Assembly: GCA_003243915.1 (NCBI GenBank)
Contig: QHCC01000173.1
Location: 1 to 38,409, forward strand
Length of the DNA stretch: 38,409 nucleotides
Source of the DNA: Pseudonocardiales bacterium
GTDB lineage: Bacteria; Actinomycetota; Actinomycetes; Mycobacteriales; Jatrophihabitantaceae
Direction: 5' to 3'
Both the position numbers and the translations under genes were made by a program. The first letter of the stretch is position 1; each line of letters opens with the position of its first letter. The notes under the pieces are model-generated. The model was not told where the DNA came from. It saw nothing but the letters and a program-made list of their open reading frames with translations, and made no database searches. Shown here piece after piece: positions 2,375 to 34,232 of the stretch.

Positions 2375-2869
2375 CTAACCGCCGCCGATATCGACCGCCT
2401 GCACCCGGTCCTCGAACTTGGTCGACAGCACCACAGTGGTGCGGGTGCGGGCCACACCCTTGATGGCATTCAGCATGCCGATCGCCCCCTCCAGGCCGGC
2501 GACATCGGGCACCCTGACCTTGACGACGAATGTCTCCTCGCCGGCGACGAACCAGCAGTGCTCGACCACCGGCAGCGCGGCCAGTGCTTCGCACAGCTCG
2601 TCGGTATCGGCGCTGTCGTTGATGAAGATGCCGATCAGCGCATTCATGGCGTAGCCCAGGGACTCCGCCGCGACGGCCGCGTGGTAGCCGGTGATCACAC
2701 CGGCGGCCTCCAGTTTGGCCACCCGTTCGTGGACGGCCGGCGCGCTCAGGCCGACGAGCCGCGCCAGCTCGGCGTAGGTGGCGCGGGCGTTCGCGCGCAA
2801 GGCATCGAGCAGTCGCCGGTCGACGGAGTCCACCAGCGCAGTCGACCCGAGCCGCCGGTGACTAGTCAA
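2375..2869 (-). CDS. Lrp/AsnC family transcriptional regulator
   Basis: Protein of 164 residues from a TTG start at 2869 that overlaps the end of ubiX by 8 bp; a GTG at 2833 (VDSVDRRLL) is the alternative start. The N-terminal winged HTH reads VDRRLLDALRANARATYAELARLVGLSAPAVHERVAKLEAAGVI, and the C-terminal RAM/effector domain contains EHCWFVAGEETFVVKVRV. From memory, an AsnC-type regulator occupies the same place beside ubiX in the Streptomyces menaquinone (mqn) cluster, so a link to futalosine-pathway control is possible. Amino acids are the usual effectors. The coupling to ubiX suggests co-transcription from upstream mqnP. Confidence 0.93.
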   Translation of the reverse strand: MTSHRRLGSTALVDSVDRRLLDALRANARATYAELARLVGLSAPAVHERVAKLEAAGVITGYHAAVAAESLGYAMNALIGIFINDSADTDELCEALAALPVVEHCWFVAGEETFVVKVRVPDVAGLEGAIGMLNAIKGVARTRTTVVLSTKFEDRVQAVDIGGG

Positions 2870-3494
2870 GTTCGCGGGCGGCGCCCAGGTGGCCGGTCCA
2901 GCGGGTGATCAGGTCATGCTCGACCCCGATCGCGTCGAGCACCTTGGCCGCCACGAAGTCGACGAGCTGCGCCACCGTCTGCGGTGCGCTGTAGAACGCT
3001 GGGCTGGCGGGCAGGACCACCGCGCCGGCGTCGTGCAGCGTGAGCATGTGCTGCAGGGTGGCTCTGGTGTAGGGCGCCTCGCGCGGAACGACCACGAGCG
3101 GGCGGCGTTCCTTGAGCGTGACGTCGGCCGCGCGCTGCAGCAGGTCCTTCGACAGCCCGATCGCGATGCCGGCGACCGCGGCGGTCGAGGCCGGCACCAC
3201 CACCATGCCCCGGGCCGGATAGGAGCCGCTGGCCGGTCCTGCGGCTAGATCGCCCGCGGGCCAGTAGGTGACGTGCGCGATGTCGCGGCCGAGCCAGCCG
3301 GCCAGATCGTCGCGCCAGTGGCCGTCGCGAAACGTCAACCCCGTCTCGTCGAGCAGGGTGAGACGCGCGGCGCGGGAGACGATTAGATCCACCGGATGGC
3401 CGGCGTCGAGCAGCCCGGTGAGCACCGCCCGGGCGTAGGGCGTGCCGGACGCGCCAGACACCCCCACCACCCAAGGCCGGCGGGTGCTAGTCAC
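2862..3494 (-). CDS. ubiX: UbiX-like flavin prenyltransferase
   Basis: Protein of 210 residues from the GTG at 3494 (VTSTRRPWVVGVSGASGTPYA); the ORF track extends upstream through a large palindrome that is unlikely to be coding. GVSGASGTPYA is the FMN-binding N-terminus of UbiX/Pad1. VVVPASTAAVAGIAIGLSKDLLQRAADVTLKERRPLVVVPREAPY and LPASPAFYSAPQTVAQLVDFVAAKVLDAIG are the standard later motifs. UbiX attaches a dimethylallyl group to FMN, making the prenylated FMN cofactor that UbiD decarboxylases require; a UbiD lies about 2 kb away. In the futalosine pathway this pair performs the late decarboxylation of the naphthoquinone precursor. The start codon lies at the very edge of the palindrome arm. 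Confidence 0.93.
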   Translation of the reverse strand: MTSTRRPWVVGVSGASGTPYARAVLTGLLDAGHPVDLIVSRAARLTLLDETGLTFRDGHWRDDLAGWLGRDIAHVTYWPAGDLAAGPASGSYPARGMVVVPASTAAVAGIAIGLSKDLLQRAADVTLKERRPLVVVPREAPYTRATLQHMLTLHDAGAVVLPASPAFYSAPQTVAQLVDFVAAKVLDAIGVEHDLITRWTGHLGAARELD

Positions 3495-3558
3495 CGCTTT
3501 GCACCTTTGAGCGCCCCAAATCAGCCCAATTTGGGGCGCTGAAAGGTGCAAAGCGGTG
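3492..3558. repeat. Near-perfect 67-bp palindrome between mqnP and ubiX
   Basis: The left arm (3492-3521) and right arm (3529-3558) are 30 nt each and complementary at 29 of 30 positions, with a 7-nt loop CAGCCCA. The arms begin CACCGCTTTGCACC and end in the AT-rich CCCCAAAT. The element fills almost the whole gap between the mqnP stop (3561) and the ubiX GTG (3492-3494). As RNA it would form a very stable hairpin that includes the ubiX start codon. It is clearly lower in GC than its surroundings and lacks a U-tract. It may be a REP/MITE-type insertion, an attenuator or an RNA-processing site. Confidence 0.9.
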
Positions 3559-3560
3559 CA

Positions 3561-4478
3561 TCATGCGGCCAGGCCGTGGATGAGCAGGTCACCCACGCCG
3601 CATCCGAACAACCCGATGCCGATGACGCCGTTGGCGGTGAAGAACGCCCGGTTGACGCGCGAGAGGTCATCGGCGCGCACGATCGTGTGCTCGTAGGCGA
3701 GCACGACCGCGGTTAGTGCGACGCCCACCCACCACAGCCAACCCAGCCCGGCCGCCGCGCCGAACCAGACGAAGGCCGCCAGGGACGCGGCGTGCACGGC
3801 GGCCGAGGCACGCAGCGCCGTCACAATGCCGAAGCGCGCCGGGAACGAGCGGGAGCCGATCCGACGGTCGATCTCGGCGTCCTGGCAGGAGTAGATCAGG
3901 TCGAAGCCGCCGATCCAGGTGCCGACCGCGATACCGAGCGCGTACGGCGCCGCCGATGTCAGGACGCCGGCGTGATCGGTCACCGCGATCCAGGCACCGA
4001 CCGGAGCGACGAACTGGGCCAGGGCGAGCAGCACCTGCGGGAAGTCGGTGAACCGTTTGCCGTAGGAGTACAGGACGAGCAGGGCAATCGCGACCGGTGC
4101 GAGCGCCAGGCACAGCCACGAGAGCAGGGCCGCCGAGGTGAGGAAGATCGCCAGCGCCACGACCGTACCGACCCACGCCGAACGAACAGACAGCTGACCG
4201 GTGACCAGCTCGCGCCGGGCGGTGCGCGGGTTCAGCGCGTCGAAGTCACGGTCCAGGATGCGGTTTGCCGACATCGCCACCGTGCGCGCCGACACCATCG
4301 CGACGGTGATCAGTGCGAGCTGCATCCAGTGCACGGTCCGGCTCTGCAGCCACATCGCCGTGAGGGCCGAGATATAGGCAAAGGGCAGCGCGAACACCGA
4401 ATGCTCGATCATCACCAGTCGCAGGAACGCCCTGACCTTGTTCGGTTCAGGCGTCGCGACGACCGGGGTGGCGGACAC
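3561..4478 (-). CDS. mqnP: MqnP-type UbiA family polyprenyltransferase (menaquinone biosynthesis)
   Basis: Protein of 305 residues from the GTG at 4478 (VSATPVVATPEPNKVRAF); the longer track ORF has an arginine-rich, non-family extension. NRILDRDFDALNPRTARREL is the first aspartate-rich prenyl-diphosphate/Mg motif, and YSCQDAEIDRRIGSRSFPARFG is the second; both match the 4-hydroxybenzoate/MqnP branch of UbiA. About eight hydrophobic helices are visible, so it is an integral membrane enzyme that joins a polyprenyl tail to an aromatic acid. Flanking ubiX and ubiD argue for the futalosine menaquinone route rather than MenA; the early genes mqnA-E are not in this window. It is the first minus-strand gene of an mqnP-ubiX-asnC unit. 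Confidence 0.9.
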   Translation of the reverse strand: MSATPVVATPEPNKVRAFLRLVMIEHSVFALPFAYISALTAMWLQSRTVHWMQLALITVAMVSARTVAMSANRILDRDFDALNPRTARRELVTGQLSVRSAWVGTVVALAIFLTSAALLSWLCLALAPVAIALLVLYSYGKRFTDFPQVLLALAQFVAPVGAWIAVTDHAGVLTSAAPYALGIAVGTWIGGFDLIYSCQDAEIDRRIGSRSFPARFGIVTALRASAAVHAASLAAFVWFGAAAGLGWLWWVGVALTAVVLAYEHTIVRADDLSRVNRAFFTANGVIGIGLFGCGVGDLLIHGLAA

Positions 4479-32357: not shown

Positions 32358-33290
32358 TCAGTTGCCGGTGAGCCAGTCCAGGCGACGCAGGATCACGCCT
32401 TCGCGCAGCGCCCACGGGCACAGTTCGAGTTCATCCACGTCGAGCGCGTCCATCGCCGCGGCCGCCACCACTGCGCCCGCGATCGTCTGATGCGCGCGAC
32501 CTTCGCTGACCCCGTCCAGTTCGGCCAGGTCGGCCGATGCCATCCGGGAGACGAACGCGCTGACCTGGCTGAGTCCGGTGCGGGTGAGGATGCGCCGCGC
32601 GCGCGGACCGGCTGAGCTCGGGGCGGCGCCGGCGAGCCGGGCGAGCGTCCGGAACGTCTTGCTCGTTGCCACGACGCGATCGGGACGCCCGCCCCCGAGC
32701 AGCTTGTCCGCGGGTTTGCTCAGCAGGGCGTCGACGTGCTCACGCAGCGCGCTCACCGCTGCCTTGTTGGGTGGGTCGGTCTCGAACCAGTCGCGGGTCA
32801 GGCGGGAGGCACCCAGCGGCAGCGATACCGCGACGGCGGGATCCTCGTCGGCGCCCGCGCCGAGTTCGAGTGATCCGCCGCCGATGTCGAGACAGATCAG
32901 GTTGCCTGCGCTCCAGCCGAGCCAGCGGCGGACGGCCAGGAACGTCAGGCGCGCCTCGTCCTCACCGGACAGCACGGTGAGTTCGACCCCGGCTTCTCTG
33001 TCGACGCGCCTGAGCACGTCCGAGGAGTTGCGGGCGTCGCGCACCGACGACGTCGCAAATGCGAGCAGCTCGTCGCAGCCGAGCTCCTTGGCCTGCTTGC
33101 GCGCGTCGTTCGCGGCGGCGACGAGCGCGTCCGCTCCGGCGGCGATGAGGTCGCCACGCGGGTTGATGTGCTCGGCCAGGCGCAACTCGCTCTTTCGTGA
33201 ATGCTGCGGCGTCGGCTGGGCACCGCGGTAGGCATCGACAACGAGCAGGTGGACGGTGTTCGACCCCACATCGAGTACACCCAACCGCAT
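32358..33290 (-). CDS. Ppx/GppA-family exopolyphosphatase-like protein
   Basis: Protein of 310 residues from an ATG at 33290. [18 protein letters not shown] is the first phosphate-binding loop of the ASKHA fold, [12 protein letters not shown] and [19 protein letters not shown] follow, and [14 protein letters not shown] is the second loop. At about 310 residues it is the short form, without the C-terminal HD-like domain of E. coli Ppx. It should hydrolyse short polyphosphate and possibly (p)ppGpp-type substrates, as described for mycobacterial Rv0496. Location near senX3-regX3, a phosphate-responsive system in mycobacteria, fits phosphate metabolism. Confidence 0.92.
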
Positions 33291-33326
33291 AGCCAGACCC
33301 TATGGCCTGTCTCGTACTCTCATCGG

Positions 33327-34163
33327 GTGCCGAGCCCTGATCACGTGGTTGCCGAAGTTCCGCTGGACTTCGCGCGGGAGTGGATCGAGTTCACCGATCC
33401 CGCAGACACCGCACACCGGATCCGCGCCGATCTGACCTGGTTGTGCTCACGCTGGACGTGCATCTTCGGGCGCGGCTGCCATGGCGTCGTCCCCGGCCGG
33501 CCCGACGACGGCTGCTGCTCGCACGGGGCGTTCTTCTCGGACAAGGAGGACGAGAAGCGGGTGCGCGGTTTCGCCGCCGCGCTGACGCCGGCGGACTGGC
33601 AGTACGCGCCCGCCGCGCAGGGAAAGGGCAAGAAGCTCGACATCGTCGAGAAGGACGACATCGGCGAGGACGTGGACCGGCGGCGGACCCGGACCGTGGA
33701 CGGCGCGTGCATCTACCTGAACCGGCCGGGCTTCGCCGGGGGGGAGGGGTGTGCCCTGCACGCGCTCGCACTGCGCACCGGGCGGCACCCGCTCGAGACC
33801 AAGCCGGAGGTGTGCTGGCAGCTGCCGGTCCGCCGCGAGCAGGACTGGGTCGATCGTCCCGACGGCACGAGGGTGCTGTTGTCCACGGTCGGCGAGTTCG
33901 ACCGCCGCGGCTGGGGCGAGGGTGGCCACGACCTGAACTGGTGGTGCACGTCCTCACCGGAGGCGCATGTCGGCGGCGAGGCGCTCTACCTGTCCTACGG
34001 GCCGGAGTTGATCGCCCTGATCGGCCAGCTGGCCTACGACGAGTTGGCGCGGTTGTGCGCCGAGCGGTTGAAGCTGGGGCTGGTGGCCGTCCATCCGGCA
34101 ACCGCGGCCGCCGCGGCCGCCGCTCCCGCCGCGGCGGGCACCGCTCGCCCGTCCGTTGAGTGA
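33327..34163 (+). CDS. Cysteine-rich conserved protein, Rv0495c-like (possible metal or Fe-S binding)
   Basis: Protein of 278 residues from a GTG at 33327, only 36 bp from the divergent ppx-like start; TACTCT 6-7 nt before suggests a leaderless message, and a GTG at 33342 is the alternative. The N-terminal third has [16 protein letters not shown] and [11 protein letters not shown]; later come [16 protein letters not shown] and EVCWQLPV. This CC-H-G and 'C-x-L-H' pattern recalls the UPF0153/YkgJ metal-chelating family, so a metal or Fe-S site is likely (inference). The C-terminus is an Ala-rich low-complexity tail. From memory, Rv0495c occupies the same place near regX3. No reaction is known. 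Confidence 0.82.
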
Positions 34164-34232
34164 CGTTTCCCCAAGATCAGAGACGGCGAATTCGGCGTCA
34201 CTCAACCGCCGGACGCGTCACTCAACCGCCGG
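34155..34232. repeat. Inverted and direct repeat overlapping a stop codon (possible bidirectional terminator)
   Basis: GTTGAGTGACG (34155-34165, containing the TGA stop of the Rv0495c-like gene) is the exact reverse complement of CGTCACTCAAC at 34196-34206 and again at 34216-34226. The right-hand part is a direct repeat GCGTCACTCAACCGCCGG (34195-34212 and 34215-34232). It fills the gap to the convergent regX3 stop. Confidence 0.8.

Follow-up and report, generated by a model that had tools for sequence, protein, structure and literature searches.

A dispersed palindromic element at a mqnP-ubiX junction, with conserved arms that are putative protein half-sites

The mqnP-ubiX junction

The window analysed here is the whole 38,409-nucleotide stretch of a Pseudonocardiales bacterium (contig QHCC01000173.1), in which a long palindrome separates mqnP from ubiX. 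NCBIfam models agree with the initial annotation on the gene identities (mqnP, ubiX and an asnC-like gene), and the following features are referred to below.

2375 to 2869, minus strand: AsnC/Lrp-like regulator, downstream of ubiX (NCBIfam search)
2862 to 3494, minus strand: ubiX, UbiX-family flavin prenyltransferase (NCBIfam TIGR00421, 160 bits)
3492 to 3494, minus strand: ubiX GTG start, within the last bases of the element (aligned with the ATG of ubiX in L138)
3492 to 3558: whole palindrome, 67 bp, the ubiX copy of the family-1 element (inverted-repeat search, fold, family alignment)
3496 to 3515, plus strand: arm 1, GCTTTGCACCTTTGAGCGCC, one mismatch to the family consensus ...TTTCAGCGCC
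3504 to 3508, minus strand: AAAGG, putative SD-like stretch inside the arm, 9 nt before the GTG (sequence)
3516 to 3534: interior, 19 nt, variable, self-complementary, of fixed length, evolving at the rate of the flanks (family comparison)
3535 to 3554, minus strand: arm 2, GCTTTGCACCTTTCAGCGCC on the minus strand, exact consensus match
3561 to 4478, minus strand: mqnP, menaquinone prenyltransferase (NCBIfam NF041584, 436 bits)
34155 to 34226: second-family copy, four GWTSAGWGACG boxes, between convergent genes, related to family 1 by layout only

The palindrome consists of two 30-nt arms (3492-3521 and 3529-3558) that pair at 29 of 30 positions (97%) around a 7-nt loop, the sole mismatch being 3509 versus 3541. 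Folded as RNA, 3485-3565 reaches -56.5 kcal/mol, compared with -24.0 +/- 3.5 in shuffled sequences (z = -9.4), and the 38-kb window holds no second inverted repeat as long and as perfect. These recomputed values reproduce the 67-bp near-perfect palindrome, with its 29 of 30 arm pairs and 7-nt loop, that the initial annotation had described. It had also stated that the palindrome nearly fills the mqnP-ubiX gap, which we measured as 64 of the 66 nt from mqnP stop to ubiX GTG, and that the GTG lies at the hairpin base, which holds on the transcribed (minus) strand. Elsewhere at the locus, a 9-bp tandem array of 16 units (CGAACCAGC; 2222-2368) lies directly 3' of the asnC-like stop.

The mqnP stop TGA is the complement of 3561-3563 and lies inside an ATGA (3561-3564); on the minus strand the order is mqnP ATGA, then the element, then ubiX from its GTG. 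In a related Jatrophihabitans MAG (L138; UbiX 80% identical), mqnP and ubiX overlap in ATGA and the palindrome is absent, which argues that the element entered this junction and now gives ubiX its GTG. The GTG codon is homologous to the old ATG, and its G comes from the element. The element would have inserted into an ancestral ATGA overlap of the two genes, and its last bases would now serve as the ubiX start codon and possibly also as its ribosome-binding site. Judged by this sequence comparison, it is an insertion that rebuilt the ubiX start, and a side effect on ubiX translation, through the start codon and SD-like stretch that the element supplies, is possible.

A family of elements in two sister species

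The assembly that the window comes from (G000; 3.67 Mb, 82% complete) was searched with an 81-bp query from the palindrome region. The full-length search returned 15 near-identical copies of about 60 bases on 13 contigs. A half-site search with GCTTTGCACCTTTCAGCGCC at no more than 3 mismatches found 15 matches in forward and 15 in reverse orientation; all 30 fall inside palindromes, where the spacing of the arms is invariably 39 bp. The reversed control pattern has 0 matches, and solo arms are absent from G000 at this threshold. A sister species (G001) carries about 37 copies, some of them decayed or broken off at contig ends. The 59-bp core comprises two inverted 20-bp half-sites and the 19 bp between them, giving the pattern TTTGCACCTTTNNGCGCC-N19-GGCGCNNAAAGGTGCAAA; taken as TTTGCACCTTTCAGCGCC - 19 nt - GGCGCTGAAAGGTGCAAA, the core is 55 bp long in 52 of 54 copies. 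Per genome, 1.5-2.4% of arm positions and 21% of interior positions are off consensus, and no two copies within one genome share an identical interior. The arm search that the initial annotation had called for therefore yields many copies with conserved ends rather than a single locus, and its option of a mobile REP/MITE-type element is borne out insofar as the element is dispersed (15 and about 37 copies).

Beyond these two genomes the family is scarce. Among 59 further relatives that were scanned, the element is present in just two, G033 with 1 copy and G035 with 2, and across a 299-genome sample of the order no other genome contains a half-site at up to 2 mismatches. The contigs concerned (G033:C24 and G035:C151) are 80-81% identical to G001 loci and sit in bins of other families; they are probably mis-binned pieces of further species of the genus. 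The viral contigs, phage records and plasmid records searched contain no element, and the palindrome has no Rfam match above the gathering score. Across the genomes validly searched, the family thus appears restricted to the genus, save for three copies on two contigs.

This distribution bears on the suggestion, made in the initial annotation, that the hairpin tunes UbiX. As a cis-regulator of ubiX, the hairpin would hide the GTG and SD and tune UbiX relative to MqnP, or would act as an RNase III processing site. The GTG and AAAGG do lie within the stem, and the sister species keeps an element at its ubiX site with the same GTG. The element nevertheless occupies 14 other, unrelated places in the same genome, and L138 manages without it at ubiX, which would make any such role at most a by-product of insertion. 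We regard this explanation as highly improbable, and a ubiX-only regulator as the origin of the element is excluded by the data.

Position relative to genes

Genes were called with a simple codon-usage gene finder. A called gene ends at 39 of the copies, and 37 of these lie within 20 bp of its stop codon. Convergent gaps are enriched (odds ratio 4.2, p = 3e-4), at 15 of 41 compared with 28 of 230 for the background on these contigs. When 55 bp is subtracted from the site-bearing convergent gaps, 17-31 bp is left in 12 of 15, close to the background median of 22, as would be expected had the core been added to an ordinary gap. The neighbouring genes (guaA, tsaD, paaA, glycogen synthase, a NarL-type regulator and others) have no common theme; a regulon reading was rejected on that ground, and UbiX tuning as the origin or primary role of the element fails on the same observation.

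In both species paaA carries an element in frame within its C-terminal tail (L068:5106-5160 and L080:2443-2497), just before the ATGA overlap with the next paa gene. As an intragenic insertion it resembles the Rickettsia palindromic elements. The next ORF (L068:5177-6295) matches the PaaB model over 1-44 and then the full PaaC in one frame, a possible fusion or deletion.

Conservation of arms, interior and pairing

Twelve orthologous pairs could be aligned, nine between G000 and G001 and three with the stray G033/G035 contigs. The arms differ at 16 of 432 positions (3.7%), compared with 53 of 228 in the interior (23.2%) and 308 of 1269 in the flanks (24.3%); the arms are distinct from the interior at p = 6e-14 and from the flanks at p = 6e-26, with the arm divergence biased somewhat downward because the pairs were recognised by their arms. 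Half-decayed copies are very few in the full-length BLAST searches of G000 and G001, which indicates that copies are mostly intact or absent.

Pairing does not show the same constraint. Among 39 non-orthologous copies, covariation is absent from the interior (217 versus 223.5 for shuffled partners, p = 0.90) and shows no clear excess in the arms (p = 0.13), with a marginal pairing excess at outer pairs 4-6 beyond the core (p = 0.03). A weak excess appears in 44 aligned copies that include orthologues (0.070 versus 0.058, reached in 11 of 500 shuffles), which we attribute to relatedness and the outer pairs. The near-perfect match of the two arms had been taken as a sign of pairing selection; that claim does not survive, since covariation is lacking and each arm fits the family-wide sequence. 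Arms that are nearly frozen, an interior that drifts and no covariation would together indicate that the arms are kept as sequence-specific DNA half-sites and not as an RNA stem. A sequence-specific DNA-binding protein is thus predicted to contact both arms at a fixed distance.

The same data weigh on the view that the palindrome is a bidirectional intrinsic terminator, or an mRNA 3'-end hairpin common to many genes. Such a role would suit the very stable hairpin, its placement just after stop codons and the enrichment in convergent gaps. It is at odds with the lack of a U-tract, with a terminator scan that is empty at the palindrome, with arms kept by sequence rather than by pairing, and with copies inside operons (among them the ancestrally overlapping mqnP-ubiX pair and the in-frame copy in the paaA tail), where downstream genes would be cut off. 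We consider this explanation improbable, and a terminator that works through pairing is unlikely.

In one orthologous pair (L070:5848 and L115:4696) the interiors differ at 11 of 19 positions and the flanks at 14%. The turnover of interiors may thus sometimes outpace point mutation. Three further processes or affiliations were tried and rejected. Self-correction of the palindrome by template switching predicts arms that match each other and not the family consensus, and an interior that is mended too; gene conversion would make the interiors of the copies uniform along with the arms, and nearest-neighbour interiors within a genome always differ; and for an attC/integron-like element, inspection found outer boxes (GCTTTGC) unlike GTTRRRY.

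Gain, loss and signs of movement

At 9 of the 15 G000 sites, ubiX included, G001 has a copy at the orthologous place. Three sites are cleanly empty in G001 (L065:5063, L072:6385 and L073:1544), at one (L071:323) G001 has another hairpin repeat in the corresponding position, and for the remaining 2 the comparison runs into contig ends. In the reverse direction, the G001 sites L100:5147, L100:6490 and L095:5024 have no element in G000, and L103:4998 has one decayed arm only. The repeat that replaces the L071:323 element is a third repeated hairpin (CGCGATGAGCTCCCCCGCAAGCGGGGG...), seen at L077:6066, L080:7243, L084:9088 and L122:1761.

Scanning all fixed offsets, we found no clearly enriched direct repeat flanking the copies that would mark a target-site duplication; the TGA/TGA repeat at the ubiX copy is accounted for by the fact that stop and start both had to be preserved. 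The Y1_Tnp/RAYT domain (PF01797) was not found in G000, G001 or G013 (assemblies 79-89% complete), and the assembled parts contain no autonomous parent, be it an arm pair around a transposase or an IS with these ends. Recent movement lacks support, given that target-site duplications are missing and that no copies in the same genome share an identical interior.

A plain REPIN or MITE, that is, a non-autonomous mobile element whose arms are kept only for a transposase or RAYT and which has no host function, would account for inverted conserved ends with a variable middle, for dispersed extragenic copies, for presence and absence between sister species and for the many more copies in G001. Against it stand the missing RAYT, IS and target-site duplications just described, the confinement of arms to palindromes in G000, the ever-different interiors, and the conservation of arms in situ at old orthologous loci, which is not expected of a dead insertion. 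On balance we find this explanation rather unlikely.

A second palindromic family

A second family has the layout GTTGAGTGACG-n9-GATCAGAGACG-n10/11-(inverted pair), with four boxes. Exact-ended copies number 2 in G000, 18 in G001 and 3 in G013, which belongs to another genus. In 9 of the 23 copies, one call being borderline, one of the inner boxes belongs to the alternative type (GTTGAGTGACG-like versus GATCAGAGACG-like); such a swap breaks the stem pairing and leaves the boxes valid. Swapped yet valid boxes lend support to reading family 1, too, as DNA sites. The window copy (34155-34226) overlaps the stop of the ORF at 33201-34163 and faces a response-regulator-like gene, and in G001 the second family is also seen at gene ends (L100:7039, L111:7505 and L128:3756).

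Possible explanations for the element

Taken together, the comparisons point to a genus-restricted, dispersed palindromic DNA element with a REP/MITE-type distribution, whose arms are putative protein half-sites and which is not primarily a ubiX regulator; we hold this reading to be probable. Of the initial annotation, the dispersed element stands, and the locus-specific regulator as origin or primary role does not. The candidate binder could be a transposase or recombinase, a nucleoid protein or a protein linked to termination; the element itself would be tolerated or kept mainly at gene ends. Two readings are live: a miniature element with a mobilising enzyme that recognises its arms, or a DNA-binding site of the host, whose spreading is incidental. 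The conservation of arms in situ would favour a present-day binder.

One tentative hypothesis, rated well short of even confidence, is that the genus has a chromosomal DNA-binding system. Its long bipartite sites (20-bp half-sites at fixed spacing, or four interchangeable boxes in the second family) would build up at the ends of genes, especially convergent ones, and selection would keep them there. The system would be a counterpart of BIMEs specific to this clade, with a part in managing supercoils, insulating transcription or assisting termination through a protein.

Comparison with known systems

REP doublets and REPINs (Bertels and Rainey 2011, PMC3116915; Nunvar 2010, PMC2817692) likewise consist of a short conserved motif in inverted pairs with a spacer between; they are extragenic, hairpin-forming and of species-specific abundance, and family 1 is itself an extragenic inverted doublet with a spacer. 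REPINs differ in having >100 copies with singlets and a mutant cloud, compared with 15 and about 37 copies and no singlets in G000 for family 1. Family 1 is further unlike REPINs in that no RAYT was found, in the lack of signs of recent copying and in the conservation of its arms in place at orthologous loci.

GTAG- and CGTC-tagged REPs are found chiefly past the ends of coding regions and in gaps between tandem or convergent ORFs, with some intragenic and many oppositely paired, and the CGTC class has no dedicated transposase (PMC3733652; Actinobacteria are not mentioned in its text, by a term search). Family 1 is like them in gene-end placement, some intragenic copies and opposite pairing, and like the CGTC class in that no dedicated transposase was found; it is unlike them in that its alignment has no GTAG or CGTC tag on a short stem and in its one 20-bp arm pair at fixed 19-bp spacing. 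From bacterial MITEs (PMC10969869) it differs in lacking target-site duplications and a detected parent IS, in its near-uniform 55-bp core and in an interior that does not come from a transposase gene. It shares with them a size within 50-500 bp, inverted ends (terminal inverted repeats in the alignment), intergenic placement and the possibility of intragenic insertion.

Orthologous copies in two species separate signals here: arms frozen as sequence, a middle that drifts and pairing that is not maintained. Together these signals predict a specific DNA-binding protein, which can be put to the test, and the ubiX copy offers an example of an element that would have entered an overlapping gene pair and come to provide the start of its second gene. 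The usual view of dispersed palindromes in bacteria is that they are RNA hairpins or dead miniature transposons, and we know of no described element of the present kind in this clade. In E. coli, BIMEs are palindromic multi-box DNA to which proteins bind, and roles in chromosome organisation and termination have been suggested for them (cf. PMC2817692). It is to these that family 1 may be likened, in its manner of working and without a claim of membership.
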